Shown piece by piece: positions 26,344 to 46,977 of a stretch of 64,000 nt of DNA. Source of the stretch: Solidesulfovibrio carbinolicus (lineage in GTDB: Bacteria; Desulfobacterota; Desulfovibrionia; Desulfovibrionales; Desulfovibrionaceae). Made by a program: the position numbers and the translations under genes. The first letter of the stretch is position 1; each line of letters begins with the position of its first letter. The notes beneath the pieces were generated by a model. It was not told the DNA's origin. It was given only the letters and a program-made list of their open reading frames with translations, and did not search any database. The stretch covers positions 2,170,001 through 2,234,000 of the forward strand of contig NZ_CP026538.1 of assembly GCF_004135975.1 (NCBI RefSeq). Direction: 5' to 3'.

Positions 26344-26411
26344 AATGGCGGAAGCGTATAGGAGTCGAACCTACCTGTGACCTCTCGACCACACACCGGA
26401 TTTGAAGTCCG
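26344..26411 (-). repeat. att site, truncated tRNA-Sec 3' half (distal end)
   Basis: Exact copy of the tRNA-Sec 3' region from encoded CCA through T arm, long variable arm and anticodon loop to the middle of the anticodon stem. After 26411 it diverges from the functional tRNA. It marks the element end furthest from the integrase. Confidence 0.92.
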
Positions 26412-26491
26412 AAACAAAACCCAGGCCCCGCCCCGACATTACCAACTATCCTCAAGAAATTTAAGGAATTTGTGACCTCACGTGAAACCCT

Positions 26492-26866: not shown

Positions 26867-27244
26867 ATGCGCGCCACCACTACTACCACCGCCGCGATCG
26901 ACATTGATTCTGCTGCCATCCTCGGCACAGAACAGCTTGCTACACGCATCGGCAGCACAGCCCGAGCCGTTGCCGTGGCTGTCCACCGCCGAGCCTTCCA
27001 CTTAGTTCCCCAACCCTTCAAAGTAGGCCGCCGGCTGCGCTGGCGGATCGAAGACGTTGACGCTTGGATTGCTGAACAAAAATCAGCACATACGATCATG
27101 CCCGCCGCCCCCGCTCCGAAGCGCCGAGGCCGTCCGACCAAGACCGAAGCCCGCGCCAAGGCCGCAGCCAAGGCCCTGGCCGAAGCCCAGGCCCAGGCCC
27201 AAGCCCAGGCCAATGCCGCCGCCCCGGCCGGCGAGGGGGCGTAG
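26867..27244 (+). CDS. AlpA/excisionase-like DNA-binding protein with basic Ala-rich tail
   Basis: 125 residues. The N-terminal 70 form a winged helix of the MerR/AlpA kind (GTEQLATRIGSTARAVAVAV, then RWRIEDVDAWIAEQ). The tail starts with an AT-hook-like KRRGRP and continues as an Ala/Gln/Lys-rich helix with repeated AQAQ units. AlpA-like proteins act as excision or transcription factors in integrated elements. The basic tail recalls nucleoid-type DNA binders. The start at 26867 is set by AGGAG at 26856-26860, and the longer frame upstream is not supported. The gene ends one base before the primase-like gene, so they are probably co-expressed. Confidence 0.6.
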   Translation: MRATTTTTAAIDIDSAAILGTEQLATRIGSTARAVAVAVHRRAFHLVPQPFKVGRRLRWRIEDVDAWIAEQKSAHTIMPAAPAPKRRGRPTKTEARAKAAAKALAEAQAQAQAQANAAAPAGEGA

Positions 27245-27245
27245 T

Positions 27246-28787
27246 ATGCAACTTCTCACACCCCAGGCCCAAAAGCCGGTCAATATCCCCGGTTTTCGCC
27301 ATCCTTCCCAAATTCTCACTTATTCCGGCGTTGACAAAGATTTTGTCTACGATTCCGAGAAAAAGGCTTTTGTTTGTTCAAACGAAGCCTTTAGCGTTTT
27401 TTGGGAAGCGTTGGAAGATCGTTACGACGACGCCGAGGCTCACAAAAGAGAACTTGGCACGCCTTGGCCCTATGAATTCACGTGCCTTTTCAACGAAAGC
27501 CCTATTTCAAAAGCCTTTTATCTCGAAAAAGGAGAAGTGAAAAGGGTCGATAAAAAATTGAACGTCTACAGAGGAACAGCCGAAAAAGTCGGCGTCTACT
27601 CATTGCGAGATTATACAAATATCCGCTTGAGCGGATTGACTAACCAAGCCTTGCAATACAGCGTTTGCGATTATGACATTGCAAACATCATCATGGACGG
27701 CGAATACCAAGCCGCTTGCGGGGATTTGAGCAATTGGAACCCCAAAAAGGGCAAACCCAAAACTTTTGAAGAACAAGAAGCTTATTTTGCAAATGGCCTT
27801 CCAATTATCGCGAGAACAGGCCTTTTTTTTGATTATGCGTGGCGTCCGGGCATTTTAGCATTGGATTTTGACAATCCTATGCCTGAAGCCGAAGCGCTTG
27901 AAAAACTCTACAAAGCAGCGCCAGCTTTACGCTATGCGCCACATGCTGTTTACGACTCCACATCTACATATATTTATCACAAAGACAAAATGCTTCGAGG
28001 CGGCGGTAAATATCGCGTTGTTTTTCTAGTCACAAATGCAACACACATTGGGCGCGCAATTGAATCCATTTTCAAAAGAGCTATCATAAATGGCGACAAT
28101 TTTTACAAATGGTCAAAAGATGCACAAATTAAGCCGGATGGATTGATTGACAAAGCAACCGGGCGAAAGAATCAAATTGATTACACGAGCGCTGTTTGTA
28201 TTCCACCGCTTGAGCAAAAGCGCCTGGAACCACGTTATTATAATGAAAGCGCCGAGCCGGTTAATTTGCGTTATGCCGCGCCATCTTTATCAAAAGATGA
28301 AGAAGAAGCTTATGCCGCCGCCGATGAAGAGGCCAGGGCACGGCTTTGGGAATGTGCGCCGGCTGGAGCTGTAAAGCCGGAACCAAGAAAGACAAAGCCC
28401 CAGACGCCAAAAACAACGGAAAACAAAGCGCCAAGGTCTTTTCGTACAAACATTGTCGAAAGAGGCAAAATTGATGCTGGGACCATTATAAATACGGAAA
28501 TTGGACCGTATAGCTGGCGAAAAATCATGGAGAATAAAGAAAAATTCCATGGGATGAACTGCGAAAATCCAGTTCGGCCGGGGAATGATGCACGGATTTA
28601 TACGCTAGATAAGCCGGGAGTTTGGTCATTTGTTGACAACGGGACATATTACCCCGCCCCGGCTCTCGCTCGTGACATCGCGCGAGCGAAGAAAGCCGAG
28701 AAAGCAAAGCAAAATGCCCGGGACGTAGAGGCATTTAAAAAAATGCATAAAATCAAAATGTTAAAGGCAAAGCTCGGCAAGAAGTAG
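27246..28787 (+). CDS. Probable replication primase (archaeo-eukaryotic primase-like)
   Basis: 513 residues. The central part contains a hydrophobic-D-F-D motif (ILALDFDNP near 205), a Ser/Tyr-rich strand ending in His (STYIYH near 241), a GGGKYRVVFLV strand and later a QIDYTS segment near 315. The order and spacing fit the three catalytic motifs (DxD, sxH, hD) of the AEP superfamily found in plasmid and phage replication proteins. The C-terminal third is Lys/Ala-rich. It is coupled to the AlpA-like gene and followed by a helicase gene and an origin-like region, consistent with an autonomous replication module. Family assignment rests on motifs seen by eye. Confidence 0.5.
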   Translation: MQLLTPQAQKPVNIPGFRHPSQILTYSGVDKDFVYDSEKKAFVCSNEAFSVFWEALEDRYDDAEAHKRELGTPWPYEFTCLFNESPISKAFYLEKGEVKRVDKKLNVYRGTAEKVGVYSLRDYTNIRLSGLTNQALQYSVCDYDIANIIMDGEYQAACGDLSNWNPKKGKPKTFEEQEAYFANGLPIIARTGLFFDYAWRPGILALDFDNPMPEAEALEKLYKAAPALRYAPHAVYDSTSTYIYHKDKMLRGGGKYRVVFLVTNATHIGRAIESIFKRAIINGDNFYKWSKDAQIKPDGLIDKATGRKNQIDYTSAVCIPPLEQKRLEPRYYNESAEPVNLRYAAPSLSKDEEEAYAAADEEARARLWECAPAGAVKPEPRKTKPQTPKTTENKAPRSFRTNIVERGKIDAGTIINTEIGPYSWRKIMENKEKFHGMNCENPVRPGNDARIYTLDKPGVWSFVDNGTYYPAPALARDIARAKKAEKAKQNARDVEAFKKMHKIKMLKAKLGKK

Positions 28788-28901: not shown

Positions 28902-31451
28902 ATGGGCCTACAAATTTTTGATGTTATTACAGACTATTTTGTTCCAGATTTTGAGCTAGACGCTAATTTCTGGAATCAATTTGTTCCTATCTACAATTCA
29001 GAGGTTCCAGAAGTAGCTGAAGCATCGCCGCGTTGCGACGATGCGCCTTTTTTTATTGTCTCGCCGGGGAAACCGTGCCGTTCGTTTATCCCTACCGAAA
29101 CTCCAAAAGAGCCTGAAAAATCCCCAAAAAGCCAGCCTGAAGTCGATTATATTAAGAAAATCACATTCCCAACAATCCAGCAATTCGAGTATCCCAAAAT
29201 TCCACTTTCTGAAGTGAGAAAAACCATGAGCGACGCCGTTTCCGGCAGTCGGAATGTAGTTATCGCGACTACGCCCGGCAGCGGCAAGACAACGACAATC
29301 AAAAAACGTATCGAAGAATTGTGTAAACAAGAAAGAACTGTTTTATATGCTGCTCCAACTAACAAAGTTGTTGACGAAACCGATGCAGCACTAAAACAAG
29401 TGCTTTATGCGCAAGAAATTCATAATACAATTCGCTACGAAGCAAGAAATGAGGACAATTGCAAACATTTCAATGCCTGTAGAGTCGCAATGGCTTTAAA
29501 TCAATCTGTTTACAAAACAGTTTGTATCAAGCGATGCGACGAAAAGAAAACAGGCGAAGACAGGTGTTGGTATCTTGCACAGCTTGATAGTTATGAGAAC
29601 GGCGTAATTTCCGGCACACATGATGCTTCGCCCTTCGTTATTAGCAAAGTTTTGGACAATAGCACAAGATTTGACGAGATTTTGATTGATGAGACGCCCA
29701 GGCCGGCGTTTGTTTCTAGTGATTCGATTACGCTCAATAATTTTCGGCTTTTGCAAGAAGGAATGCAAGAGACTGAATGGTTCAAAAAACTTTCTAATTT
29801 TATCAATAACAACATGCTAAAAATTGGAGAAAAGCACTATATACAAATGCCTTTATGCGTTAGCAATGAACATGTTGCGCAAATGAACGAATCCGGGGCT
29901 TGGGAAGCATTAAAGAAAGTCTTTTTTGACGCAGACTCAATAAAGCATCGTCGCGCTTGTGTTGAAAGAGAAAAACAAAATCAAGAATACAATAAAGGCC
30001 TGCCAAAAATCAACAAGGCTCGTTTAAAGCAATACAAACTAGAAAAAGAAGCATTTTTGATCGATCAAAAGAAGACAGGGATTTTAATTGCTCAAGAAAA
30101 ATACCCCGAGTTCGTGCCGACGCCAGAACGGAACGAAATGCCGGCCTTTATTCATTCTGATTTACCAAACAAGCAAAGCTGGGAAGAAAAATGGCGTGAA
30201 AATCAATGGATCACTCGTGAAGAGTGTCCAGTTCATAATTTGGGCATCAACGGTAAAGACATCGCCGAGGCTATCATAAAATTTTACGAGTTGGCAAAAA
30301 TCTACGAAGATTCAGAAGCGGCAATTAACGGTCTTGAATTTGAATTTTTCAGAGCCGCGTTGGGGCTTTCTGAAGATGATGCATATATTGAAGCGAAAGA
30401 AATCACTATCAAGTCAAAAGACCCAGATGAAGACGACAAAACCCAAAAAAGCATTGCTTTTCGTATTGTCAAGCGTAAAAAAATGGAATTCGGTCAATCA
30501 CGGCTTGTTGTTTTGGATGGAACCGCCGACGAAGAAGAGCTTAGGGCGCTTTTTGATTGCGAATTCGATTTTGTCAAAGCTGATTCAATGCTTCAAAAAA
30601 CATATACAGTGTTTTTTGAACAATCATTAGGTTCCCGCGATGCGCGCTATCTCGCGAAAAGCGCATTGAGTAAGAAAAGGCCTGATGACAAAAGGATTCG
30701 TCGTCTTTTAAGCCGATCTATTGCAAAGTTAAAAAAGACTAATAAAAAAGTGCTTTTATTAACCTTCAAAGACCTGTCTGATGTTTTGTTAAAAATCGCA
30801 AAGGAGATTGACCCGAGCCGTGAATACGTTAATACTCATTATTACGGAAACAGGGGATTAAATGAATTTGAAGATTGCGATGCAGTAATTGCAATCGGTA
30901 CGCCTTTTGTGTCGCCGATTGACTTTGAACCAATTTCAATAAAACTTTTCGGCTATGTGAATGAGCAATGGATTGCGAGGCAAGGATTGCGTGAATTGAT
31001 TCAATCAATTCACAGAATTCGGCCTATTAACCATGAAACAACCATCATTTTGACGGGGAACTATTTCCCGACCGAAGCTTTTGGAAGGCCAGATTTACAC
31101 ATCCAGGCGCAAAGAGACGGAGAACGTGACAAATTAGTGCAAAAGGCCGTTGAATTGTTAATCCCGATTGCAAAAGAGCTAAAATGTTTGACGCAAGAAA
31201 TTGCGGGGGAATACGGACTTTTTGATGAAGAAGACTTCAAAAGCATTGAAAAACACGAACAAGACGGGAAAGAGGTTGTTTTAAGGTGGACTCACAAAGA
31301 ATGGCCGACAATTATTAAAAAGGTAGCCAAAATTTGCGGCTTGCCGGTTGTTGCACGACAGCAAAAACGAGGCGCGCCAAGGCTGGCGGCCGGGGCGGAT
31401 CGGGCGTTCGTTGCCCTGGGGCGCAAGCGGCGGGCTGGCGGGCTTCAATAA
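28902..31451 (+). CDS. Large superfamily 1/2 helicase
   Basis: 849 residues. Walker A TTPGSGKTTT near 125 is followed by motif Ia (VLYAAPTNKVVDE). Walker B is the unusual ILIDETPRP near 261, and a C-terminal RecA-like domain ends with a motif VI-like QSIHRIRP near 704. The long insert between the two RecA folds (about 290-560) is Lys/Glu-rich and probably helical. Cysteines around 187-225 (CKHFNAC, then a CIKRC pair and a later Cys) may bind zinc or an Fe-S cluster. Most of the gene has low GC, but the last 30 codons are GC-rich with a basic tail, suggesting replacement of the 3' end. It is likely the replicative helicase of the element. Confidence 0.7.
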   Translation: MGLQIFDVITDYFVPDFELDANFWNQFVPIYNSEVPEVAEASPRCDDAPFFIVSPGKPCRSFIPTETPKEPEKSPKSQPEVDYIKKITFPTIQQFEYPKIPLSEVRKTMSDAVSGSRNVVIATTPGSGKTTTIKKRIEELCKQERTVLYAAPTNKVVDETDAALKQVLYAQEIHNTIRYEARNEDNCKHFNACRVAMALNQSVYKTVCIKRCDEKKTGEDRCWYLAQLDSYENGVISGTHDASPFVISKVLDNSTRFDEILIDETPRPAFVSSDSITLNNFRLLQEGMQETEWFKKLSNFINNNMLKIGEKHYIQMPLCVSNEHVAQMNESGAWEALKKVFFDADSIKHRRACVEREKQNQEYNKGLPKINKARLKQYKLEKEAFLIDQKKTGILIAQEKYPEFVPTPERNEMPAFIHSDLPNKQSWEEKWRENQWITREECPVHNLGINGKDIAEAIIKFYELAKIYEDSEAAINGLEFEFFRAALGLSEDDAYIEAKEITIKSKDPDEDDKTQKSIAFRIVKRKKMEFGQSRLVVLDGTADEEELRALFDCEFDFVKADSMLQKTYTVFFEQSLGSRDARYLAKSALSKKRPDDKRIRRLLSRSIAKLKKTNKKVLLLTFKDLSDVLLKIAKEIDPSREYVNTHYYGNRGLNEFEDCDAVIAIGTPFVSPIDFEPISIKLFGYVNEQWIARQGLRELIQSIHRIRPINHETTIILTGNYFPTEAFGRPDLHIQAQRDGERDKLVQKAVELLIPIAKELKCLTQEIAGEYGLFDEEDFKSIEKHEQDGKEVVLRWTHKEWPTIIKKVAKICGLPVVARQQKRGAPRLAAGADRAFVALGRKRRAGGLQ

Positions 31452-32362: not shown

Positions 32363-33013
32363 ATGCAACGCTCATGCATCACAGCCCTGGCCGCCCTCAT
32401 CTTGACTGCATCTATCGCCGACGCCCAAGTCCGCCGCACGTCCGCCGACCTTTCGCGCGAGGAAGTTTTGCCTACAGTCTCCACGTCGGCCCCACTTATA
32501 CCTGTTGGCTCGCTTATGTCATTTCCGAGTAACATACCCCCATCCAATCTCCCAAACTGGCTCGAATGTAACGGTCAAGCTATACCTGTCGGCGCTAAAT
32601 ACGACAGATTGCGCTCGATGGTCGGCCCCAACGTTCCAGACTACACAAACGGCCAATTTTTACGTAGTACAACAGATGCAAGCCGCGTAGGCACTACAGT
32701 AGCCGACTCTATACGCTCTCATACTGTAGAAGTACCCGGCCAAGCTGCTACTGTAAGTGGTACAGCCGCACCACAAAACTTTGACTACGTTTGGACTGGC
32801 GAGTCAGAGGCCGCAACTATGACATCAGCACCTAACTCCACCGTGGGAGTCGGCAACTACAACAACACGTATAACTCTGCAAGCGGCGTCACAAGCGGCG
32901 GTACAATCACTGGCATTGCAGCAGTGCAACCGACAACTGGTACGTACAACGGCTCTAGCGAGACTGCGCCTATTCATAGTTACGTGCGTACGTACATCCG
33001 TGCCGTACAATAA
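32363..33013 (+). CDS. Secreted protein with phage tail-collar-like domain
   Basis: 216 residues. A signal peptide (1-22, cleavage after ADA) leads to a tail-collar-like segment (VGSLMSFPS then NWLECNGQAIPVGAKYDRL, about 48-82). A Ser/Thr/Gly-rich beta-type middle and an end AxxHSYVRTYIRAVQ follow, like the C-terminus of collar/tip proteins. Phage collar proteins lack signal peptides, so this one is exported by Sec to the periplasm or surface. No other virion gene is present. Receptor-binding proteins of conjugative pili (PilV type) use related folds, so a role in recipient contact is plausible but inferred. It begins with GGAGCC ahead of the ATG. Confidence 0.65.
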   Translation: MQRSCITALAALILTASIADAQVRRTSADLSREEVLPTVSTSAPLIPVGSLMSFPSNIPPSNLPNWLECNGQAIPVGAKYDRLRSMVGPNVPDYTNGQFLRSTTDASRVGTTVADSIRSHTVEVPGQAATVSGTAAPQNFDYVWTGESEAATMTSAPNSTVGVGNYNNTYNSASGVTSGGTITGIAAVQPTTGTYNGSSETAPIHSYVRTYIRAVQ

Positions 33014-33016
33014 CTG

Positions 33017-33045
33017 TTGACACGCCAACCAAAACCCCATATATT
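33017..33045 (+). promoter_or_regulatory. Consensus sigma-70 promoter for the second collar protein gene
   Basis: TTGACA and TATATT are separated by exactly 17 bp. The -10 ends 31 bp before the start codon. This is the strongest housekeeping-type promoter seen in the element, so the short second collar gene is probably expressed on its own and constitutively. Confidence 0.75.
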
Positions 33046-33076
33046 GTCTCTACAACATCAACCCAGGAGCCACATC

Positions 33077-33412
33077 ATGCCCCGCATCATCGCCACCCTC
33101 GCCGTCCTGCTGTCCATCGTCGCCGCCATCCCCGCTTTTGCACAGTCTCAATATCAACAAAACCCCCTTCAAATCGGCGTCATTATTCACTCGACCGACC
33201 CCCGCATGCTCCCCGGGGGTATGGAAGGCTGGCTTCTGTGCGATGGCCGCCCCGTCCCTGCCGAGTTTCCCGAACTTATTGCAATCATTGGGGAAACTCT
33301 CCCGAATCTGCCGGCTATCGACATGACCGCTTACGGTGGCTCGGGCCTGTCTTATGCTTACATTAACGCCACCCCCCTTATCCCTCTCGCGCAAAAGCAG
33401 TCAAACACCTGA
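33077..33412 (+). CDS. Short secreted tail-collar-like protein
   Basis: 111 residues. A signal peptide (1-22, cleavage after AFA) is followed by a compact collar segment (VIIHSTDPRMLPGGMEGWLL, then CDGRPVP, about 33-68) parallel to that of the upstream gene. It then stops without the long Ser/Thr-rich region and C-terminal HSYVRTYIRA block. It is either a natural short paralogue or a truncated copy. AGGAGCC precedes the ATG. The tandem pair may supply two forms of one surface module. Confidence 0.6.
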   Translation: MPRIIATLAVLLSIVAAIPAFAQSQYQQNPLQIGVIIHSTDPRMLPGGMEGWLLCDGRPVPAEFPELIAIIGETLPNLPAIDMTAYGGSGLSYAYINATPLIPLAQKQSNT

Positions 33413-33586: not shown

Positions 33587-36292
33587 CTAGCTGTTTTTCT
33601 TGTCTAATCCAGCCAATCCCGGCCCCAGGAGGTTTTCGAAAGCCGCCCTGGACTTCCCGCCGGCCATGCCCTGGCCTTGGCCTTGGCCCTGATCCTGGCC
33701 GCTGGCCGCCGCACTGCCGGCGTCGGCGATGCCCTGGCCGAGGTCGCCACCGGCCGCCGGGGCTGGGCTGGTCGCTGTCCCGGCCGGCTTTGCGCCGCCG
33801 CCCTGGCCCAGGCCTTGGCCTTGGCCTTGGGCTTCGCCGAGGCCCGCATTGCCCATGATCCCCTCACCCGCCGCACCGGGGCGGGACGGGCTGGCGGGCT
33901 TGGCCGCCGCGCCACCGCCACCGCCACCGTTTTTCGGCCCACCGGCCGGCAATTGAGCCATCCCCGGCCCAATTTCCCCTTTTTTGCTCCCTGTTTTGTC
34001 TTCTTTCCCCGGCTCCTTTGGCAATTGCGGCCTAGGACCAGTTCCGAGCCGATTTGCGGCCATGTTGCCAAGACTTGTCACATGTCCCCCAAACATCGCA
34101 ACTGCACGCCCGGATTGTTGATGCATATCGTTTTCGTCGCCCAAGCCTCCGCTTTGAGCACTTCCGATCCATTTCGACATCTGGGACGGCAAATAGCCGA
34201 TGCCTTTGGTAAAAACGAGCACAATCAAGCCGTACATCGACGCAATGACGACAACTGTATAGACAAGGTTCGCGGTCAGCCCCATTTTGATGAATTCGCC
34301 ATTTGAGACGAACCAAGCAGAAAACAGGACATAATACATGTGCCCGCACACACGGACGACGGCAATTGCAAAAACGGTTCCTAGAACGAGCAGGACCGGC
34401 CGAATTACAATATCAATCAACAAAAGATAGCCTTTTCGGGCCGCTTCGCCGGCAAACCCTTCCCCCTTTGGTAAAGCGTGGATACATGCCCAAAAAGGGG
34501 CCGCAACCAAGCTTTCCACGACAAGAAAAATCCACGTCACTAATGCCCGAATCCAATACAGAAATGGGGTTATTGGACAAATGTAAGCCAAAACGACGCC
34601 GCAAGTGACTAATGCGGCCCCGATCACGAACGCCGCGCTCGTAATCATCGACGAAACGCCCAGGATTCCATTTGCGCCTGGAATTTTGTCGGCGAAGCCG
34701 ACAATCAGGCTAGCAACGCCGGAAAGTCCTGCTGTGCCAAATGCCGCATATCCCGCACTGATTAAGCGGTTTCCCATCGCTGCAATCACAACAAACGGGT
34801 CTTTTGACTCAAATTGCCTCAAAACCCCGGCCAAAATGCCAACATCGCCAATATCTCCACCGGCCATATCATTGCTCATAACGAGCTTTGATGCGATTTT
34901 TTCAATCCAGCCCTGTAAACCTCCCCCTTTTCCGTCTGCTTGCACTGATGCAGTGTATGAGTAGTTTTCGAGGATTTTGGATGAAAAATAGCCGGCAGAG
35001 TTGACAAATGCCGCAATTGCTGCGGGACTCCACCCCGCGTTCGCGATTCCGGTCCAAACCTGCCAACCGGCAGGCGAAAGCACTTTTTTGACAGCGCTGT
35101 TATCAATGACCGAAAATTCGGGATGGACTAACAAAAGGTCGTCTGCATCTCTTTGAAGCGACGCGACCGAAAAATTGTATAACCCGGCCCCAAACCACCC
35201 TTTTTTCGTCGTTGTTCCGTCAAAATCAAGTGCTTTCTTGACTTTGGCTTGCCAATCCGCGTTGTTTGACAAATAAGCTGAAGCGGCCTCTTTTGTCGTT
35301 TCCGTGACGTTTGTAACGTACTCCTTGATTAAATCTTTATAATTTTTGGCAGACGTGCTGCCCCGGGTGATTTTGACGATAGAAGCAAGCGCATTGTCAG
35401 ACTCAATGTATTGACTCGCGATGCCCCGCATTCCTTCCCACAGCGTTTCTGCTGCTGCAATACGCGCATCCGCAATTTGCCGTTGAAGAGAAGATTTTTC
35501 GTCATCCCCGGCGGGATAAGCATAGGAAACGCTCCCAAGCATCCCTTTGTCAGTCCCTTGAATGCTTCGAGCATAAAGCGAAATTCTGTTGTCCTTTTTT
35601 TCGACAACATAGTATTTTGAGGCCCTGATAATTGTTTCGCTTGTTTCGGGGGTTGTTTCCCAATACGAACTTCTTTGCAGTTCGTCTAAATTTTGCACAA
35701 CGGCAGCGGAAAACATCGTGGGGAGAAATGCATACGCTTCCTCGGAAAGCGTGTTGCTTGTCAACGAAACGATATTTTGGCTTGTTTCAGCAAGGATTTT
35801 TGCGCTTGCATCCCAAACCGCGTTAGCAAGATTGATACTTAGCGAAATGCAGGCGACAATTGCCACTTGCAGCAAAGAAAGCCCTTTAAGAACTGGAACG
35901 GTCAACGCGAATGCAGACGCATGGCGCACCGGAACCCATAAGCTGTTATATGTGCCACCACCCAACTTTTTGCCTTCATGCGCTGTAGAAACAGAGAAAA
36001 TGCCCCACATATAAAGAATTAGCGCTGACAAACACGTCAATGCAGCTAAATTGAGCGTTGCGAGAACAGAAACGATCAATCCGGCATACGGATTTGTCCA
36101 GTTTGCCAAATCTTCAATGTCGCCCGCGACATTGGTCAAAACATCGCCGAGGAGGTTTTTGAGCATTGCCGCGCTCAAATCCGACTTTTTCTCAATTTCC
36201 ACGTGCGAGGGAAGGTCAATTTGCACGTCTGCCGCTGCCGCCTGCGTGCTGGCGCACAAAAGCAGCGCCAGCACAATGAAGAAGGTTTTCAT
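33587..36292 (-). CDS. DotA/TraY-family type IVB secretion membrane protein
   Basis: 901 residues. A signal peptide (1-20), several transmembrane helices around 70-165 and again 540-720, and the family-typical stretch GGGTYNSLWVPVRHASAFAL near 120 match DotA of Legionella and TraY of IncI plasmids. The last 160 residues are Gly/Gln/Pro-rich with repeated GQGQ units and a GC-rich coding sequence unlike the rest. DotA-type proteins sit in the inner membrane as part of the transfer channel. In IncI plasmids TraY is also the donor factor recognised by entry exclusion. It is the last gene of a three-gene minus-strand operon. No other channel component is encoded in the element. Confidence 0.75.
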   Translation of the reverse strand: MKTFFIVLALLLCASTQAAAADVQIDLPSHVEIEKKSDLSAAMLKNLLGDVLTNVAGDIEDLANWTNPYAGLIVSVLATLNLAALTCLSALILYMWGIFSVSTAHEGKKLGGGTYNSLWVPVRHASAFALTVPVLKGLSLLQVAIVACISLSINLANAVWDASAKILAETSQNIVSLTSNTLSEEAYAFLPTMFSAAVVQNLDELQRSSYWETTPETSETIIRASKYYVVEKKDNRISLYARSIQGTDKGMLGSVSYAYPAGDDEKSSLQRQIADARIAAAETLWEGMRGIASQYIESDNALASIVKITRGSTSAKNYKDLIKEYVTNVTETTKEAASAYLSNNADWQAKVKKALDFDGTTTKKGWFGAGLYNFSVASLQRDADDLLLVHPEFSVIDNSAVKKVLSPAGWQVWTGIANAGWSPAAIAAFVNSAGYFSSKILENYSYTASVQADGKGGGLQGWIEKIASKLVMSNDMAGGDIGDVGILAGVLRQFESKDPFVVIAAMGNRLISAGYAAFGTAGLSGVASLIVGFADKIPGANGILGVSSMITSAAFVIGAALVTCGVVLAYICPITPFLYWIRALVTWIFLVVESLVAAPFWACIHALPKGEGFAGEAARKGYLLLIDIVIRPVLLVLGTVFAIAVVRVCGHMYYVLFSAWFVSNGEFIKMGLTANLVYTVVVIASMYGLIVLVFTKGIGYLPSQMSKWIGSAQSGGLGDENDMHQQSGRAVAMFGGHVTSLGNMAANRLGTGPRPQLPKEPGKEDKTGSKKGEIGPGMAQLPAGGPKNGGGGGGAAAKPASPSRPGAAGEGIMGNAGLGEAQGQGQGLGQGGGAKPAGTATSPAPAAGGDLGQGIADAGSAAASGQDQGQGQGQGMAGGKSRAAFENLLGPGLAGLDKKNS

Positions 36293-36322
36293 GTCTAGGA
36301 GTCCTCTATATGTAGATGTCGG

Positions 36323-36694
36323 CTAGACGCCGGCTTTGACGAAATTTGCGACGACGTAGAAAAGGAGCGCAACTCCCGCGCCTGTTGCCACAAGCCGTAT
36401 TGTCAGTATACCCCATTTTCCCGTTGACGTGCGAAACGCATCAACATACGTCAGCAATGCAATTTTGAGATGATCGAGAAAATTAGGCTCTCGTTCGCCC
36501 GCCAATTGTCGTTTGTAGATTTCCGATAATCCTTCCAAGCTGCCGTATTTTGCTTCGTATTCCGCCTGTTCTTGTTTCGCATCCGAAACAATCGCTTTGA
36601 TGCGTTTCAAAATAATCCATCCAAAATATGCGGCGATAACGGCAATGGCAGCGTATTGGGCCAGGAATCGTTCGATTGTGTGCGCGGTATCCAT
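36323..36694 (-). CDS. Small two-helix membrane protein, IcmV/TraX-like by position
   Basis: 123 residues with a hydrophobic helix at about 12-32 and another at about 95-120, separated by a charged helical stretch. In Legionella the small membrane protein IcmV is encoded directly before dotA, and IncI plasmids have the TraX/TraY pair. This gene stands in the same place, 30 bp upstream of the DotA-like gene. Sequence similarity itself could not be tested. AGGAGC lies ahead of the ATG. It likely acts with the DotA-like protein in the inner membrane. Confidence 0.5.
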   Translation of the reverse strand: MDTAHTIERFLAQYAAIAVIAAYFGWIILKRIKAIVSDAKQEQAEYEAKYGSLEGLSEIYKRQLAGEREPNFLDHLKIALLTYVDAFRTSTGKWGILTIRLVATGAGVALLFYVVANFVKAGV

Positions 36695-36726: not shown

Positions 36727-37377
36727 TTACGCTTCGGCGTCGGAATCGGCCGCGTCGGCTTCGGGCGTGGGCACAGTCGTGGAAAATTCAAGCTCGACGT
36801 CAGGAACGGTTCCAATATCAAGCCGGCCTTTCCATTCCGTTTCGTTGAACGCTAAACAGGCGATAGATAGGCCCCTTTCAAGCACGTCCACGAGTTTTTC
36901 AAACTTCCCCGCGAATTCCTTTGGCACCGAAATTTGAACGGTTTTGGGGTCGCGTTTGGGCCTGTCCTTGTTCAAAATCGCTTGGACGTAATAGACGAAT
37001 GTTTTTGTGCTAATTTGCAATTCAAGCCGCTTTTGGAAGGCTCTGTGAATGGCTTCGTATCCGACACCAGATTCTTTTAGCTCCAAAATCTTGTCGATTT
37101 TCTGTTCGATAACTTGCTTATCGGACAGTTCAATCTTGACGTGGGACTTTTTCAATTCGTCCAGATCCTTGTCTATTGCTGCCATCGCCTCCGCATCGCG
37201 CGAAACAGTGATTTTATGTGCGCGTTTCCGCTTCGGGGTCTTTTTGGCCTTGGTTTCGGTTTTGTTTTCAGTAGAGGTTGTTTCGGAAAAAACGGAGACA
37301 TTTTTGGGATCGGCAACAGGACTTGAGTCGGAATTTTTCAATTCCGGTTTTTGGGAAGTCGTCGGCTGGGAATTCAT
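36727..37377 (-). CDS. Unknown soluble protein with HTH-like segment, first gene of the DotA-like operon
   Basis: About 216 residues from the MNSQ start, which has GAGGT about 10 bp upstream; a longer frame starts at 37464. The N-terminus (1-55) is polar and disordered, followed by a basic KKTPKRKRAHK patch and a helical region. A segment like small conjugation-plasmid HTH proteins (ILELKESGVGYEAIHRAFQK) lies near 100-140. The C-terminal part may form a small beta domain. Its position between the candidate oriT and the secretion genes would fit an oriT-binding accessory protein or operon regulator. Function unknown. Confidence 0.5.
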   Translation of the reverse strand: MNSQPTTSQKPELKNSDSSPVADPKNVSVFSETTSTENKTETKAKKTPKRKRAHKITVSRDAEAMAAIDKDLDELKKSHVKIELSDKQVIEQKIDKILELKESGVGYEAIHRAFQKRLELQISTKTFVYYVQAILNKDRPKRDPKTVQISVPKEFAGKFEKLVDVLERGLSIACLAFNETEWKGRLDIGTVPDVELEFSTTVPTPEADAADSDAEA

Positions 37378-37527
37378 CGCTTTTACCTCGCTTTTGGTGG
37401 TTTGTGTGTGAATATCATCGTGTTCGGTGGTAACAGTAGGATTTGCATCAACGCTGTGTAACATTGTTTTTGTCTCTTGTTTGCCACCACTAGGTGGGTT
37501 GTAGGTTTTTTGTGGTGTAGTGTGGAC

Positions 37528-37570
37528 CTCTGTAGTAGAGGCATAGTAACACTGCTGACCGGGCTGTCAA
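37528..37570 (-). promoter_or_regulatory. Promoter and operator of the DotA-like operon
   Basis: On the minus strand TTGACA (37570-37565) and TACTAT (37548-37543) are 16 bp apart. Directly downstream lies the palindrome CCTCT-N5-AGAGG (37528-37542), placed where a bound repressor would block transcription. A second palindrome CCACC-ACTA-GGTGG lies at 37484-37497. Confidence 0.6.
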
Positions 37571-37640
37571 CGGCCACCCAACCACTTTCGTACTTTGTGA
37601 ATTTAATTTTTTGACCAGTATAACGTCGAAATCGGTTGAC

Positions 37641-37760
37641 GGGCCAGGGCGGTATGATAAGGATAAGACGAATTCAGGTGAAGAGGCAGGATTGCCCAGG
37701 GGACCCCGCTACGCGGGCCGTTGCTTCGCGCCTGTCTCTGGGCCTCCTGCTCCTGCGGAG
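37641..37760. other. Candidate origin of transfer (oriT)
   Basis: The minus strand reads CAATCCTGCC at 37694-37685 and contains ATCCTG, the core nick hexamer of IncP/MOBP relaxases. An imperfect inverted repeat (GCAGGA-TT-GCCCAG at 37686-37699 with CTGGGC-C-TCCTGC at 37738-37750) overlaps it. A second small stem (CCCGC-TAC-GCGGG) lies between. The region is non-coding and immediately precedes mobC and the relaxase gene, the usual oriT position. Predicted cleavage is between 37687 and 37686 on the minus strand. Confidence 0.45.
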
Positions 37761-37873
37761 GGCTGAAGAGGCGGCCCGGAGGCCGCAAGACCGCCCTGGC
37801 GGCGACAACGAACGAACCTTTGGAGAGACAGGAATGAAACGGATCAATTGGCGAACCATTAACGAGGCACATC

Positions 37874-38146
37874 ATGGGTAAAGGACGGGTCTACACCGAA
37901 GTCGCTAAATGCCGGGTGACGCCGGAGCAGATGGCGCAGATCGAAAAGGATGCCGAGGCCTATGGCAAATCCGTGGCGGGCTACATCCGCGACCGCCTGA
38001 CCGGCCGCCGCATCCAGGCTAAAACCGATCAACAGATGCTCGCGGAGTTGCGCAGGATCGGCCAGGGGATCATCAAGCATTGGCGCGTCAACGCGCCCGA
38101 GCTTGCCGACGCAATCGACCGGCTGGCCGACCGCATCAATAGATAG
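37874..38146 (+). CDS. mobC: MobC-like relaxosome accessory protein
   Basis: 90-residue ribbon-helix-helix protein of the plasmid mobilisation MobC/NikA kind. It has a beta strand with basic residues (KCRVTPEQMAQIEKDAEAYG), a YIRDRLTG helix and a C-terminal helical tail. Such proteins bind oriT and load the relaxase. It is GC-rich, in contrast to the flanking low-GC genes, and lies 15 bp ahead of the relaxase gene. GAGG precedes the ATG. Confidence 0.75.
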   Translation: MGKGRVYTEVAKCRVTPEQMAQIEKDAEAYGKSVAGYIRDRLTGRRIQAKTDQQMLAELRRIGQGIIKHWRVNAPELADAIDRLADRINR

Positions 38147-38161: not shown

Positions 38162-41100
38162 GTGATCGTCAAACGCGTCAAGCAATCCGACCGAGGCGGG
38201 GCCAAGGCCGCCAGCCAATCCGGCGGCGCGGCGGCGAGCCGGCGCACAAGCGATTACGTGCGCGGTCTTGACGAGCGCCACGCCGCCGCGACGGCAGCGG
38301 GCGAACGGATCGAGGCGACCGGCTATAGCTGCCCGGGTCGGCCTGAAGTGCAGGACATTGACGAGGCGGCGCGGTGGTTGGATCGGGAGGCCGAGGCGTA
38401 CCAAATGCAGGGCGGCCAGGGCAGGCCCTATGACCATTGGGTCATTTCGTTTGAAGCAGGGGAGCGGCCAACAGAAGTCCAGGTTGCCGAGGCCGTTGAA
38501 ATTTTCCGCCGCAATCTCGGGGTGCCTCCCGAAGCCCCGCTTTTGTGGGGCTTGCACAACGACACGAAAAATTTTCACATCCATGCCCAGGTTTCGACCG
38601 TTATTGCCAATAACTGGGGTCGCCTTGAGGTCCGCAGCTTGAACACCGTGGACGTGACGCGAGACGACAAGCGCGGGGGGCGGCTGCGCTTCTACGCGCA
38701 CAAAGCCGCGTCCAGGGCGTGCGCTGAAATCTGCGAGCGCCAGGGGTGGGACGCAAAAAATTTGGCCTGGGACAAGCATGGTCAGCGCGTGACCAAGGCC
38801 GTCCCGGCTGACGGGGTGCGCCTTCCGCCCCGGATCAAAGATTATGAGGCGACCCACCGCCACCAGCACCCGGCGCACGTCCTGGCCTTGGCCGCGCTGC
38901 CGATCCTCGCCGCCGCACAGAGCCGCGCCGAGGCCGTGGCCGGGCTGGCGGCTATCGGTATTGAGATGGATATTAAGCCGACGAAGTCGGGTCGAGATGG
39001 GGCTGTGTTGTCCTCGCCCATTAGCGGCGGTCGGCTGGCTCTGTCAGCGCTGCCCAGAGAGTGCGCCTTATCATCTATAGACGCCCGCGCCGCCGCCATG
39101 GGCCGCCCCATCGCCTCCCAGGCCACACCCGCCAGCCCGCCCCGTGTTTCCGGCGCAGGCGCGGTCAGGCTCGCACAGCCCCAACGCACCGCCGCCCCCT
39201 GGACCCCGGCCAGGGTTGGGAATCAGGCGAAACGGATCATTTCCGGGGCGTTGTCCTGGTCCGATATTTTGACCGATTTCCGCCGCGAGGGATGGACCCT
39301 CGCCCGCGCCGGAAAATCGGGTGCGGTTATCGTCGCAAAATCGGCAGACGGAGCGCCCGAAATCCGGGTCAAAATGTCGGACGTTCCCGGGCGCAATTCC
39401 CTCAATAACATTACTAAAAAATTTGATGACTTAACCTTAGAAGACGCGGTCGAAAGCGGCAAAATTTCTCGCGAACTTTTCGATGCCGTCGTGACGTATC
39501 CACAAGCCGAAAAAGCGGCTGAAAAAGCGGCAATTTTGGCGGTCGGAAATGCGCAAGAAATCCCGACTGATCCCAATGCCATTATTCTTCCTCAAAACGC
39601 ACTCGATGAAGAGGCCCTTTCCGGCCAGCCGTCCGCGCTCCGAAAGTTGGGCGAAGTGGCTCGGGACACGATTAGAGAGTCTTTGTCTCAAGATAAGTCG
39701 ATTGTTCAAACAATCGACCGCCTTGCTCAAAAGGGCATTCAAATCGAGCTTTTCCAGAAAGAAGGCGTTGGCCTCGTTTCTCTTCGTCTTTCAGCAGTCG
39801 GAATCAAAGGTTCCCTGGCTTTATCATCGCTTCCGGCAGATTGCCGTTTGAAAGCCTTGGCCGCAAAATTCAACGAAAAGTACAGAGAAACCCCCGACAA
39901 GCGCCATTACAACCCCGAGGCGGCCAAAGCGGCTGAATTAGTAGAGATCGACCCCGAAGATGATTTGATCGAGATCATTCGCAAAAATCTTGCCAAAATC
40001 GCTTCACAAAACGCCCACGGCACCAAAATTTTCGACTGGTCCAGGGATACGCGCAAGCTCAAGAAAGTTGAGGAAAAGCCCGCCGATGAAAGCGCGGCTT
40101 TGGACATTTCCGCGCCGGTTGATCTTAAAGGCGCAGAAAAAGAGGCTTGGAAAGCTGGGGAACTCGTTAAACACGAGTTTAAGAGCGCTTTGGCCGCTTA
40201 TAACAAACAAACAGAGGAAAATAACGGCACTAGGTCAATGTGGGATTTCGTTATCCCTGCATTGGAAAAACGCGGCTGGCGTCTTGAAATGACGGAGACA
40301 GGGGCGCAAGTCTCAATAAAAGGACAAAAGCCCATCGATTTGGCCGAGCTTGAACTAAACTTTACGGCTTATTGCAAAATATTTGGCGAACCAAACATTG
40401 AGATGAAGAAAGAAGGTCTTTCTAGGGAAGAGCTTCAAAATCTCAAAGAAGAGGTGCAGTTCGCAAGATTCGCTCAATTCGCAGCAATGGACGTGCGCAA
40501 TATTTTCAAGGGCGGCGATTTTGACGCGATTATGAGCGAAATAGAGGCAAGGGGCTGGCGGATTGAAGCGGCTGGGAATAGCGCTCAAATCATCGTCAAT
40601 GACCGCTTAACGGTGCCATTATGGCACGCCAAAGTGGATTACGAGGATTTGTGCGAAAAGTGGGGCCGTGAGCCAGCTTTTCAGATTGCGGGCTGGCGCG
40701 AGATGAGCGCACAGCAACAGCATTTTGAGATGCAAAAACGGCAACTTCGACAGATTTTCAGAGCTAAATCGTGGGAAAGCATTGTTCAACGTCTTGAACT
40801 GCAAGGGGCGCGGCTTGAATTGACGAAAAACGGTGAAGGCGGCCGGGTTGTTCTCAAAGACGGGACGAGGGTCAAAATAAGCGAATTCACCCGCAGTCTG
40901 AAAACCTTGCGCGAGAGGAAACAGGGCGATCTTAATCGGCTCATGGCCGTGCGAGAAGCCGCAAAACGTACAGAGCGAGCGATTGAGCGGCAAAAGGCCA
41001 TGGACGCCAGGATTCAAGAGCAAAAGCGGCCAAAGCAGCAGGAAACGTCACGATACCAAGTGCCGTCCCTCAAAACGCCGCCCCCGGCTCAATCTTTTTC

Positions 41101-41290
41101 CGAATTGCGCAACATCGTTGCGGAACTTCGGAAAACAAACCCTGCCGAGGCTGACAGAGTAGAAAAAGAGGCCTTGGCAGCACAAAAGGCCCGAAATAGT
41201 CGTTATCAGTCAATGTCTCAAACAAAACAATCAACAACAGAAGGTCATCATGTCAAATCAATCGACTCCGCTCGAACAAGCGCAAAATAG
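38162..41290 (+). CDS. MOBP-type relaxase with repeated C-terminal domains
   Basis: 1,042 residues. The relaxase domain (about 1-200) has a candidate catalytic Tyr in SDYVRGL near 31 and a metal-binding motif HNDTKNFHIH near 135, as in VirD2/MobA(P) relaxases. After it, at least six divergent copies of a 45-60-residue unit with pattern W..I...L...GW.LE...GA.V are seen near 255, 367, 513, 693, 786 and 870. They resemble the short repeats found in the C-termini of some large relaxases. The gene changes from GC-rich (to about 39,300) to GC-poor, suggesting fusion of two origins. It nicks oriT and pilots the strand. It overlaps the next gene. Confidence 0.82.
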   Translation: MIVKRVKQSDRGGAKAASQSGGAAASRRTSDYVRGLDERHAAATAAGERIEATGYSCPGRPEVQDIDEAARWLDREAEAYQMQGGQGRPYDHWVISFEAGERPTEVQVAEAVEIFRRNLGVPPEAPLLWGLHNDTKNFHIHAQVSTVIANNWGRLEVRSLNTVDVTRDDKRGGRLRFYAHKAASRACAEICERQGWDAKNLAWDKHGQRVTKAVPADGVRLPPRIKDYEATHRHQHPAHVLALAALPILAAAQSRAEAVAGLAAIGIEMDIKPTKSGRDGAVLSSPISGGRLALSALPRECALSSIDARAAAMGRPIASQATPASPPRVSGAGAVRLAQPQRTAAPWTPARVGNQAKRIISGALSWSDILTDFRREGWTLARAGKSGAVIVAKSADGAPEIRVKMSDVPGRNSLNNITKKFDDLTLEDAVESGKISRELFDAVVTYPQAEKAAEKAAILAVGNAQEIPTDPNAIILPQNALDEEALSGQPSALRKLGEVARDTIRESLSQDKSIVQTIDRLAQKGIQIELFQKEGVGLVSLRLSAVGIKGSLALSSLPADCRLKALAAKFNEKYRETPDKRHYNPEAAKAAELVEIDPEDDLIEIIRKNLAKIASQNAHGTKIFDWSRDTRKLKKVEEKPADESAALDISAPVDLKGAEKEAWKAGELVKHEFKSALAAYNKQTEENNGTRSMWDFVIPALEKRGWRLEMTETGAQVSIKGQKPIDLAELELNFTAYCKIFGEPNIEMKKEGLSREELQNLKEEVQFARFAQFAAMDVRNIFKGGDFDAIMSEIEARGWRIEAAGNSAQIIVNDRLTVPLWHAKVDYEDLCEKWGREPAFQIAGWREMSAQQQHFEMQKRQLRQIFRAKSWESIVQRLELQGARLELTKNGEGGRVVLKDGTRVKISEFTRSLKTLRERKQGDLNRLMAVREAAKRTERAIERQKAMDARIQEQKRPKQQETSRYQVPSLKTPPPAQSFSELRNIVAELRKTNPAEADRVEKEALAAQKARNSRYQSMSQTKQSTTEGHHVKSIDSARTSAK

Positions 41291-42387: not shown

Positions 42388-43590
42388 TTATGACATCGCG
42401 GCCATAGCGCGGGCGTGGGCGTCGTCGCCGGCCTCGGCGGCGGGGGAGAATTCAAGGGCGGCGACGGCTTTGGCGTTGGCGCTTGCCAAAGCGGCTTTGT
42501 TGCACAAACTTTCGGGAGTAGCGATAAAAATACCGCTGCCCTTTGCCGTGTAGCGATTGATGAACTTGTCCATTTCAGTGACTTTAAGCCCACTTCCGTG
42601 AACCGGGTCTTTCGGATCGGGCGTATATTCCGCAACCATCATTTTGCCTGACTTATCGCGAAACGTCATCGCAACGTGGTCAATTCCGTTCGCGCGGCCT
42701 TTATCCCACCCCTTATTACCCGTATCGAGTCCGATCATACAGCCAGGACGCGGGTTTTTGAGCAATTCTTGCGGCGTGATCCTTCCGCCGCGTTGCATCG
42801 CCGTTGTAACCATGTCGGCGGCGCAACCTTGCGGGAATTTATCAAAAACGGCCTTTCCCGCTGATTCGTTAACGTTTTTGCCTACCCGCTTCATCATTGC
42901 GCTAACAAACGCCGAACAGTCCATTTTCCCGTCTAAATCGGCCCTTCCGCCGTAAGCGTAAGGGTAGCCCTTGGCTTTAAGGCCATCAATTGCCTGATTG
43001 ATGCTAGAATTGATCGAATTATCGAGCCAATCCCCGCCTTTCTCGCCGGGCTGGATTTTGGGGACTTTTTGAAGAGGAAGCGCCGCAATGTCTTTTTCGA
43101 GGCCTTCCATGGCCTTTTTGAAGGTTTCCGGGTCCATAAACGCCACTTTTATGCCCTTGGCGTCGAAACCGGGCAAAGGCCGCACTTTGATAGTATTTGG
43201 ATTACCCGACACGACTTCGCACGGCGTTGAAACAGGCCCCTCGCGCGTAAACACGCTTTGAAGCATAATCGGGGCGCGTTCGATTTTTCGCGACAGATCG
43301 GCGGCAATTGCTTGCTGTTGAGCCGCCGGGCGGTCGCGGATGCCAATATCCACGGCCTGGACTGGCTGGCCGGGGCCGGAAAATTTCGCAAACCCGGCGT
43401 CGAGGCCGTGGAATTTTGTGGCAGTCAAAAAGGTGTCGCCGCGCACGTTGATAAATGCGGCAGGCCACGCTTCGCGATTATTGCCGATTGTTCCGCGCGT
43501 TGCTGGCGTTAATAAATTTGGATCGGACGGCGTGATTGGCTGTTGTTTTGTCGGCTGTGACGTGGTCGATGCGTTTTGCTTGAGGCCCAT
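42388..43590 (-). CDS. NlpC/P60-type cysteine peptidase
   Basis: 400 residues from the MGLKQ start, chosen because AAGGAG lies 7 bp upstream. The C-terminal half has the NlpC/P60 layout: YAYGGRADLDGKMDCSAFVS with the catalytic Cys near 225, and GIDHVAMTF with the catalytic His near 304. The N-terminal half is unrecognised, with beta-rich segments. No signal peptide or membrane anchor is visible, so export would need the conjugative channel, lysis or another route. Such enzymes cleave peptidoglycan stem peptides, which could help a transfer apparatus cross the wall or act in the recipient. Transcribed alone against the relaxase operon. Confidence 0.7.
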   Translation of the reverse strand: MGLKQNASTTSQPTKQQPITPSDPNLLTPATRGTIGNNREAWPAAFINVRGDTFLTATKFHGLDAGFAKFSGPGQPVQAVDIGIRDRPAAQQQAIAADLSRKIERAPIMLQSVFTREGPVSTPCEVVSGNPNTIKVRPLPGFDAKGIKVAFMDPETFKKAMEGLEKDIAALPLQKVPKIQPGEKGGDWLDNSINSSINQAIDGLKAKGYPYAYGGRADLDGKMDCSAFVSAMMKRVGKNVNESAGKAVFDKFPQGCAADMVTTAMQRGGRITPQELLKNPRPGCMIGLDTGNKGWDKGRANGIDHVAMTFRDKSGKMMVAEYTPDPKDPVHGSGLKVTEMDKFINRYTAKGSGIFIATPESLCNKAALASANAKAVAALEFSPAAEAGDDAHARAMAAMS

Positions 43591-43945
43591 AAGACACTCC
43601 TTGTAGTTATTACCCCCATAAAATCCATACATGGAATGCCAAACAATAGCAAGTAAAGAGTAACAGCCGGCCTTTATGGCGCGGTGCGTGCGTTACATCG
43701 GTCAGGCGCGCAGGGCTGGCCGGTCACAGGCGGCGCGAGGGCGTGGGCGGGGGGTTCTCAAGCCGGGGAGCCACGGCCCGAGGCGGGCCTATCTGGGGCA
43801 AGCCCCAGCCCCCAAAGCATAGATAACAACCCGAATAAATTGGATATTTATTTTGAAAATCGCCTTAGATTTACCTTGCATATGCGCCCATTGGGCGTAT
43901 GACTGAAGTCAAGACGACTAAAGACCGAAACAGCCGGAGGATAAA
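43591..43945. other. Intergenic region with palindrome
   Basis: About 355 bp with no supported gene. GC-rich in the left part, A/T-rich in the right. A near-palindrome (ATGCGCCCATTGGGCGTAT, 43882-43900) lies 46 bp before the next start and could be a repressor site for the small-gene cluster. GGAGG at 43935-43939 is the ribosome site of the next gene. Confidence 0.4.
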
Positions 43946-46775: not shown

Positions 46776-46881
46776 TTTTGCCACCTCCTGCTGCGCTCGT
46801 TGCAGCATATTTGCAGCAAAAAGTCAAATCGGGGCTTTTTTGGAGGCTGACGGGAGGCGGGAAAATCGGAAAAAGTTCAAT

Positions 46882-46949
46882 AATGGCGGAAGCGTATAGG
46901 AGTCGAACCTACCTGTGACCTCTCGACCACACACCGGATTTGAAGTCCG
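46882..46949 (-). repeat. att site within the intact tRNA-Sec gene (integrase end)
   Basis: 68 bp identical to 26344-26411, covering the tRNA 3' end from CCA to the anticodon stem. The element supplied this segment, restoring the tRNA on insertion. Confidence 0.92.
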
Positions 46950-46977
46950 GGCGCCACACCGGTGACGAAACGCTTCC
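46884..46977 (-). tRNA. selC: tRNA-Sec (anticodon UCA)
   Basis: 94 nt including encoded CCA. Acceptor GGAAGCGT pairs with ACGCTTCC (8 bp), discriminator G, anticodon stem CCGGA/TCCGG with loop CTTCAAA (anticodon TCA), long variable arm, T loop TTCGACT. The 8-bp acceptor stem, UCA anticodon and long extra arm are the selenocysteine tRNA hallmarks. It decodes in-frame UGA in selenoproteins such as formate dehydrogenase. Confidence 0.95.

Follow-up and report, generated by a model that had tools for sequence, protein, structure and literature searches.

A lone DotA/TraY gene on an integrative and mobilizable element of Solidesulfovibrio carbinolicus, possibly a private gate for the type IVB channel of a helper

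The window analysed here is the stretch of 64,000 nucleotides at positions 2,170,001 to 2,234,000 of contig NZ_CP026538.1 (Solidesulfovibrio carbinolicus), and all coordinates refer to it. It contains a 20.5-kb stretch whose ends and genes mark it as an integrative and mobilizable element (IME) located within a tRNA-Sec gene, and this IME encodes a protein of the DotA/TraY family, the VirB6-type gate of type IVB conjugation channels. The features on which the argument depends are the following (lengths in amino acids, aa).

26344..26411, no strand: left attachment repeat, 68 bp, in a predicted tRNA-Sec gene (26346-26443, minus strand; ARAGORN); 100% identical to 46882-46949
33587..36292, minus strand: DotA/TraY family protein of VirB6 type, 901 aa, with a C-terminal tail of ~190 aa rich in Gly, Pro, and Gln (TIGR04346, PDB DotA, Foldseek)
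36323..36694, minus strand: 123-aa protein with two hydrophobic segments, directly upstream of TraY, not recognisable as IcmV/TraX (Pfam, NCBIfam, PHROG, hhalign)
36727..37464, minus strand: 245-aa protein, perhaps a relaxosome accessory protein or a regulator (weak homologues in two sister elements)
37465..37873, no strand: intergenic region between divergent mobilization genes, possible origin of transfer (oriT; imperfect inverted repeats)
37874..38146, plus strand: NikA-like relaxosome protein, 90 aa (PF21983, 8.1e-16; NCBIfam MobA, 2e-12, below cut-off)
38162..41290, plus strand: MOBP relaxase, 1042 aa, GTG start (PF03432, 4.3e-9; PF22863, 4.5e-8; NF041893, 9.1e-21, below cut-off)
45753..46808, minus strand: tyrosine integrase, 351 aa (PF00589, 2.6e-27)
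46882..46949, no strand: right attachment repeat, in a predicted tRNA-Sec gene (46884-46977, minus strand; repeat search, ARAGORN)

The repeats are exact and direct, and lie 20,538 bp apart within the two predicted tRNA-Sec genes. The element thus combines an integrase and direct-repeat ends with a relaxase and an accessory protein (PF03432, PF22863, and PF21983), the features by which an IME is recognised, and the mobilizable element proposed in the initial annotation of this DNA is confirmed by the repeats, the tyrosine integrase, the MOBP relaxase, and the NikA-like protein. The possible oriT holds imperfect inverted repeats at 37714-37727/37765-37778 and 37734-37747/37778-37791. As for the 245-aa protein, it has no convincing family match in Pfam, NCBIfam, or PHROG.

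The 901-codon open reading frame (ORF) of TraY is unbroken, and by sequence comparison its product is a true member of the DotA/TraY family. The NCBIfam profile TIGR04346 (curated cut-off 100 bits) matches it with E 2.7e-80 and 270.8 bits over model positions 1-656 of 656, and a PDB search returns Legionella DotA (9ngy) for the sequence alone (E 2.9e-14) as well as for a 27-row profile that includes it (E 2.5e-91). Foldseek places the same entry, the DotA-IcmX protochannel, first for the AlphaFold2 model (E 1.2e-15, probability 1.00); it is the sole match under 0.001, the runner-up has E 0.65, and stalk entries of R388 VirB6 occur among the chance-level matches. Since the model has a mean predicted local distance difference test (pLDDT) value of 61, and a template modelling (TM) score of 0.37 and a root mean square deviation of 14.6 against 9ngy, the fold match holds at the domain level only. 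The equivalog profile NF033886 (T4SS_DotA) is not reached (137.3 bits vs a cut-off of 500). The protein has a signal-like N-terminus, hydrophobic segments in the first 155 residues and in residues 516-694, and a low-complexity tail. The DotA/TraY type given in the initial annotation is therefore upheld, and the likeness far exceeds the mere hydrophobicity to which, as that annotation allowed, it might have been reduced.

The gene directly upstream had been read as IcmV/TraX, which would give an icmV-dotA (traX-traY) order. Its place and its two hydrophobic segments (residues 11-29 and 96-114) agree with this order, and its end lies 34 bp ahead of TraY. Membership in the IcmV/TraX family, however, is not borne out, and the IcmV label was dropped after profile comparison: hhalign gives a probability of 0.1 and E 0.53 against a 12-row TraX/IcmV-type profile, whose own assignment to IcmV/TraX is by gene position and topology alone. 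Pfam and PHROG have no matches, NCBIfam nothing beyond TolQ at E 0.063, and a single-sequence structure model reaches pLDDT 61. The profile check suggested with the initial annotation thus places the 901-aa protein in DotA/TraY, but not the 123-aa protein in IcmV/TraX. A small two-helix protein with common motifs is present near TraY at several loci with an orphan TraY and in the complete IVB cassettes known from the bacterial family. It occupies the traX/icmV position, and the name TraX is given to it from position and topology (alignment A3, profile TraX1); the best PDB match of this TraX-type profile has E 0.13.

According to purpose-built profiles, which do find their targets at other loci, DotB, DotC, DotG, DotH, DotI, DotO, and a coupling protein are all absent within 16 kb of the window TraY, a range that covers the element. 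These purpose-built profiles are of IVB kinds. The larger ORFs of the element that were scanned have no Pfam match to mating-pair ATPases or coupling proteins, and blast comparison reveals no ExcA beside TraY. In the own genome TIGR04346 is matched once only, and the whole-genome profile search yields no DotH (PF12293) and no DotI (PF11393). The earlier statement that the element has no ATPase, coupling protein, or other channel gene therefore holds for the IVB genes searched, and no complete IVB set accompanies TraY on the element.

A VirB6-type subunit is thus carried by an element without a complete channel, as in SGI1. Because relaxosome genes and TraY are present with no other channel gene, the element is best read as inserting its own gate into an IVB helper. 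By analogy with SGI1 TraG in IncC channels, we think it reasonably probable that it replaces the DotA/TraY gate in the IVB channel of the helper. The same gene content would also be left by a once complete IVB element that had lost its other genes, none of which (among those searched) remains, and such reduction has been discussed as a way in which mobilizable elements arise (PMC11389934). For TraY to be such a relic is highly improbable: the ORF is intact at 901 codons, and 35 alignment columns are identical in 13 of 13 rows, the window included (columns where the window alone departs are not counted).

The replacement of a helper gate has a basis in known systems. DotA has been assigned as the VirB6 counterpart; together with IcmX it builds a pentameric protochannel whose opening is required for transfer (PMC12857230, PMC12981334). 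TraY is needed in R64, and pCTX-M3 with traY deleted transfers again once the gene is provided in trans (PMC6112013). That TraY of IncI plasmids is the determinant recognised by entry exclusion, as the initial annotation had it, agrees with the published recognition of TraY as the target of ExcA (PMC12365149, PMC11493245). The TraG (VirB6) of SGI1 replaces that of the IncC helper and is crucial for transfer between helper-bearing cells, overcoming exclusion (PMC5389848); the SGI1 subunit is described as disabling exclusion (PMC5389848, PMC11493245). The initial annotation had cited SGI1 for such subunit swapping, and the TraG case supports it; SGI1, however, is not the sole precedent, since GISul2 and an IncP island carry TrbL, the VirB6 homologue of mating-pair formation type MPF_T, with TrbJ and TrbK (PMC5704250).

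Applied to the window, the process would begin with a type IVB conjugative plasmid or integrative and conjugative element entering a cell that carries the IME. The TraY of the IME would then assemble in place of, or together with, the helper TraY in the central DotA protochannel, and the hybrid channel would pass the DNA of the IME. The likeliest gain would be to evade the entry exclusion of the helper, which in IncI plasmids is directed at TraY, to favour the relaxosome of the IME itself, or both. In type IVB systems the gene would play the part that TraG of SGI1 plays in IncC plasmids, and the element looks as if it may be built to work like an SGI1-type element.

Like the window element, SGI1 with traN, traH, and traG is an IME without its own channel that carries a VirB6-type subunit (TraG, the VirB6 homologue of MPF_F). 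It differs in its MPF_F (IncC) helper, its three subunits, and the lack of a relaxase (PMC5704250), whereas the window element combines one subunit with a NikA-like protein and a MOBP relaxase, and would have a helper of IVB type. GISul2 and the IncP island are likewise IMEs with a VirB6 homologue, accompanied by a VirB5 homologue and an exclusion protein, and the IncP island has its own relaxosome; their channel type, however, is MPF_T rather than IVB, and subversion by them is also a proposal (PMC5704250). The TraX-TraY-ExcA block of IncI, IncL, and IncM plasmids contains the same DotA/TraY family and, in the pOXA-48 lineage, was possibly swapped as a unit (PMC12365149). In contrast to the window element, with no ExcA found beside TraY and no recognisable TraX, this block sits in complete conjugative plasmids. 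Finally, complete IVB cassettes of the same bacterial family (e.g., L069 and N. vulgaris pDsulf-L2-2) include the loci closest to the window TraY in membrane segments (L067-L082), but have further Dot genes near TraY (DotB, DotC, DotG, DotH, DotI, DotO, and others). Since the SGI1 TraG and GISul2/IncP TrbL cases exist, a private VirB6-type subunit on an IME is a known kind; what seems to be new is the IVB channel type, the breadth, and the limitation to a single subunit. No description of orphan DotA/TraY satellites for type IVB channels was found in the open-access literature searched; the earlier remark that no such element had been described for DotA/TraY therefore stands for DotA/TraY, with the MPF_T TrbL cases as parallels (PMC5704250).

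Lone TraY genes recur in the taxonomic class of S. carbinolicus. TraY was found in 58 and DotH in 37 of 348 genomes, with both in 32, TraY only in 26, and DotH only in 5. At 16 of the 40 loci read in the class, TraY has other IVB genes in its vicinity; at the remaining 24 it has none. In several genomes of genus g45 with a lone TraY locus, however, the remaining IVB system lies elsewhere in the genome. Since this holds for G130, G136, and other g45 genomes, the notion that every lone TraY marks a satellite was rejected. The IVB systems of this genus appear split (L050, L054, L182-L184), unlike the compact cassettes of relatives: TraY of G136 is ~40 kb and that of G130 84-96 kb away from DotO/DotG/DotH/DotC/DotB, and G130 has two TraY-type places. 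Many of the 26 TraY-only genomes are drafts or contig-end pieces, e.g., G142 (L068, with DotB, DotC, and DotO), and the TraY-only claim is therefore limited to nine genomes with completeness of at least 99% that have TraY without DotH and DotI (the own genome, G061, G099, G100, G300, G305, G309, G311, and G314). G300 and G305 are single-contig, and the DotI scan was positive for G021, G130, and G136.

Scans of named genomes extend the pattern to other lineages; their loci overlap in part (same contigs) and are not summed. At 45 of the best 80 loci of 89 relatives, TraY is flanked by 8 kb or more on either side, and at 17 of the 45 no IVB gene occurs in those flanks. DotH and DotI were sought in the 25 genomes behind 27 of the 80 loci (L134 left out) and in 9 plasmid records. 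Both are present in 11 of the 34 (7 genomes and 4 plasmids) and both absent in 23, the two markers agreeing in 34 of 34 cases. The latter comprise 5 small plasmids and 18 genomes with no stated completeness, namely, eight of Paraburkholderia (including P. xenovorans LB400), Cellvibrio, Hahella, Spongiibacteraceae, Pseudoxanthomonas, Lysobacteraceae, Ectothiorhodospira, Janthinobacterium, and three metagenome-assembled genomes; two of these TraY matches are short (L160, 244 aa, and L147, 602 aa). All 10 orphan TraY proteins that were re-scanned exceed the TIGR04346 cut-off. As for plasmid records, 3940 match the window TraY at 1e-3 and 372 match the Xanthomonas TraY at 1e-10; of these records, 6 with satellites were read whole, from which no rate can be derived.

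The orphan elements are variously built. Five plasmids of 18.8-40 kb (two from Xanthomonas, Aeromonas pGES5, Vitreoscilla pVF2, and one from P. aeruginosa) encode a MOBP-type relaxase, TraY, and an M23 peptidase, and the two Xanthomonas satellites also a coupling protein. Like the window element, pXAS27, pGEV872.3, pGES5, pVF2, and pHPA0698-3 combine a MOBP-type relaxase, a lone DotA/TraY, and a peptidoglycan peptidase without DotH or DotI; unlike it, they are not integrated, and their peptidase is M23 vs NlpC/P60. The Xanthomonas satellites further differ from the window element in their coupling protein, and their records give the MOB-suite type as non-mobilizable. L064 and L066 have a TrwC (MOBF) relaxase, a coupling protein, an integrase, and TraY, and L096 has the same set as judged by purpose-built profiles. 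tRNA-bounded islands of 14-16 kb with a lone TraY occur in Paraburkholderia and Cellvibrio. L156, bounded by 47-bp tRNA-Met repeats 15.9 kb apart, contains an IncQ-type RepC, a MobA/MobL relaxase adjoining TraY, and an RnlA toxin gene, and L124 and L157 have the same relaxase-TraY pair. The ends of L119 are 47-bp tRNA-Val repeats at a distance of 14.3 kb. Between them lie TraY, a TraW-type gene, and a gene for a reverse transcriptase; none of the ten proteins scanned was recognised as a relaxase. The genes of L058 encode TraY, an integrase, a 257-aa protein, and a DnaD/HTH protein of replication type. Attachment repeats were sought in nine loci and found in the window, L119, and L156; none were found in L058, L114, L116, L135, and L181, where the flanks read may stop short of the far end, and a mere 19-bp match beside a tRNA in L124 was not accepted. 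As the elements differ in relaxases (MOBP, MOBF, MOBQ, or none recognised), ends, and gene sets, TraY has been recruited or retained on several unrelated backbones. This persistence of the same single gene with different relaxases and integration sites also argues against a relic.

Some details of these loci stand apart. The TraW-type partner is not called IcmX, because its profile (TraW1) reaches TraW of IncI (hhalign 70.8%, E 3.8e-5) but not IcmX in PDB. Between the TraW-type gene and TraY of the Paraburkholderia islands lies a secreted-looking protein of 170 aa (L119, 7281-7790), VirB5-like by eye only, which would parallel the TrbJ-TrbL of GISul2. L058 (G305:C1:660000-679900) looks like a very small integrative element near tRNA-Ser. 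A lone TraY is not claimed for IncP-6 plasmids, for which mob genes without DotA are given in PMC4785139.

Elements in which TraY accompanies an integrase or replication genes and the scanned proteins include no relaxase (L058, the L063/L084 group, and L119) would also suit a role in interference. In that role, TraY would act as a dominant-negative or recipient-side factor that stops incoming or resident plasmids from conjugating through IVB channels, and would so protect the host cell or lineage; IMEs with orphan exclusion factors do exist (Sfx; PMC11493245). We nevertheless consider this unlikely, given that several orphans adjoin a relaxase of one of three classes, as transfer use predicts, and that the exclusion proteins named in the literature considered are recipient proteins that target a channel subunit rather than the subunit itself.

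The same question can be addressed through the sister elements in the genus. Relaxase matches occur in 39 of the 348 class genomes, and the two strongest after the window are a second place in the own genome (L179, 34% identity) and G006 of the same genus (L181, 29%). In both, the relaxase has as neighbours a NikA-like gene and a gene whose product is weakly similar to the 245-aa protein (31-34% identity over 76-79 aa, 36-39 bits). Beyond the latter gene, on the same strand and approximately where the window has TraY, both encode a protein that resembles a coupling protein (TrwB_AAD_bind, 23.7 and 36.6 bits vs a cut-off of 20.5). A transfer part in this position speaks against interference, and the three loci suggest one IME backbone that may have been fitted with different single transfer parts. 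L179 and L180 (G000:C1:1356000-1388000, own genome) also contain a BREX-type cluster (BrxC, PglX, BrxHI, and PglZ) beside the coupling-protein-like gene.

Selection on orphan TraY was estimated by ratios of nonsynonymous to synonymous divergence (dN/dS) taken from Nei-Gojobori dN and dS estimates. The ratio is 0.06-0.08 in 3 of 6 pairs of group A, two of these being near saturation and the remaining 3 pairs saturated; for Paraburkholderia, all 15 pairs fall within 0.16-0.32. Judged by these values, orphan TraY is under purifying selection in two groups, which again disfavours a relic. In its membrane segments, the window TraY comes closest to the complete IVB cassettes that belong to its family (means 38.2% and 38.0%, 16 cassettes); these segments have 21-34% identity to other rows, with the exception of one L064 segment (37%). 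A kinship of the window and L058 in the tree (SH-aLRT 93) was not used as evidence, both branches being flagged as long (2.44 and 2.1). An unusually divergent TraY centre was considered as a signature of evasion and rejected: among pairs with 35-40% membrane identity, central identity is 15.2% for the window (16 pairs) vs 16.2% with standard deviation 2.3 (221 pairs). Such low central identity is ordinary for DotA/TraY pairs and hence no sign of selection to evade exclusion.

A candidate satellite and helper occur together in Xanthomonas citri DAR73910, the one strain looked at, which carries both a satellite plasmid and an IVB plasmid. The latter has annotated genes of DotC, DotD, DotG, DotH, DotI, and DotO type and a DotB-type match, and its TraY is 66% identical to that of a near-identical satellite. 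This identity between satellite-type and helper TraY counts against use of TraY with a non-IVB channel or alone, e.g., as an inner-membrane pore joined to another helper type. Such use would fit the absence of DotH and DotI from 18 of the 25 other genomes tested and the coupling proteins that some elements bring along, and relaxases of the MOBF and MOBQ classes work with channels of several types. However, the window protein and the 10 re-scanned orphans are DotA/TraY by a curated profile, and family members of known function act in IVB systems, so that we judge non-IVB use improbable.

Several observations weigh against insertion of the gate into a helper channel. The own genome contains no helper, and DotH is found in 0 of 14 genomes of the genus, the own included. 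The window TraY has no close relative, and what speaks for its functionality is its intactness and common conserved residues. Its identity to known helper TraY is ~38% in the membrane segments and 15% in the centre, and the profile search detected no TraW-type partner on the element. Some orphan elements have no recognised relaxase, and L149, L153, and L165, which are among the 17 loci without a nearby IVB gene, belong to genomes that do have DotH and DotI, so nearby absence alone is insufficient. In X. euvesicatoria, preliminary tests showed no contribution of Icm/Dot to plasmid transfer (PMC10432156). On balance, the idea of a helper-channel swap is partly supported by orphan TraY on plasmids and islands of other lineages, by purifying selection, and by the sister element; entry of TraY into the helper channel, or an effect on exclusion, is what we infer from these.

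A wider extension, about which we lean slightly towards doubt, is that a private VirB6-type gate is a general satellite strategy. In addition to the MPF_F (SGI1) and MPF_T (GISul2) cases, a widespread set of unrelated MOBP, MOBF, and MOBQ plasmids and islands would have repeatedly acquired or kept DotA/TraY, some with a TraW-type partner, and would remodel IVB channels with it, the gate being the common swap point because entry exclusion recognises it. If so, there are satellites that refit the gate of type IVB channels, the IncI and IncM plasmid channels included, which would explain the single large membrane protein kept by relaxase-only plasmids and islands, named but unexplained in annotation. 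The orphans would also serve as naturally occurring TraY variants with which exclusion specificity could be mapped, and it would become testable whether the VirB6-type subunit is a general swap point between helpers and hitchhikers.

The element contains five further annotated genes.

27057..28787, plus strand: primase-like protein, start uncertain (PHROG DNA primase, 9.9e-5; a 21% relative in L179)
28902..31451, plus strand: helicase-like protein, 849 aa (PF13245, 1.1e-8)
32363..33013, plus strand: secreted-looking protein with a tail-collar domain, 216 aa (PF07484, 2.4e-4, below cut-off; PHROG 523 tail collar fibre, 1.6e-10)
33074..33412, plus strand: second, shorter tail-collar protein, 112 aa (PF07484, 1e-4, below cut-off)
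42388..43632, minus strand: NlpC/P60-like peptidoglycan peptidase, 414 aa (PF00877, 1.1e-4, 22.6 bits vs a cut-off of 23; PHROG 329, 8e-7)

The two tail-collar proteins (32363-33412) have no relative among the loci compared. Both have signal-like N-termini and adjoin TraY on the opposite strand, and they could be secreted adhesin-like tips.

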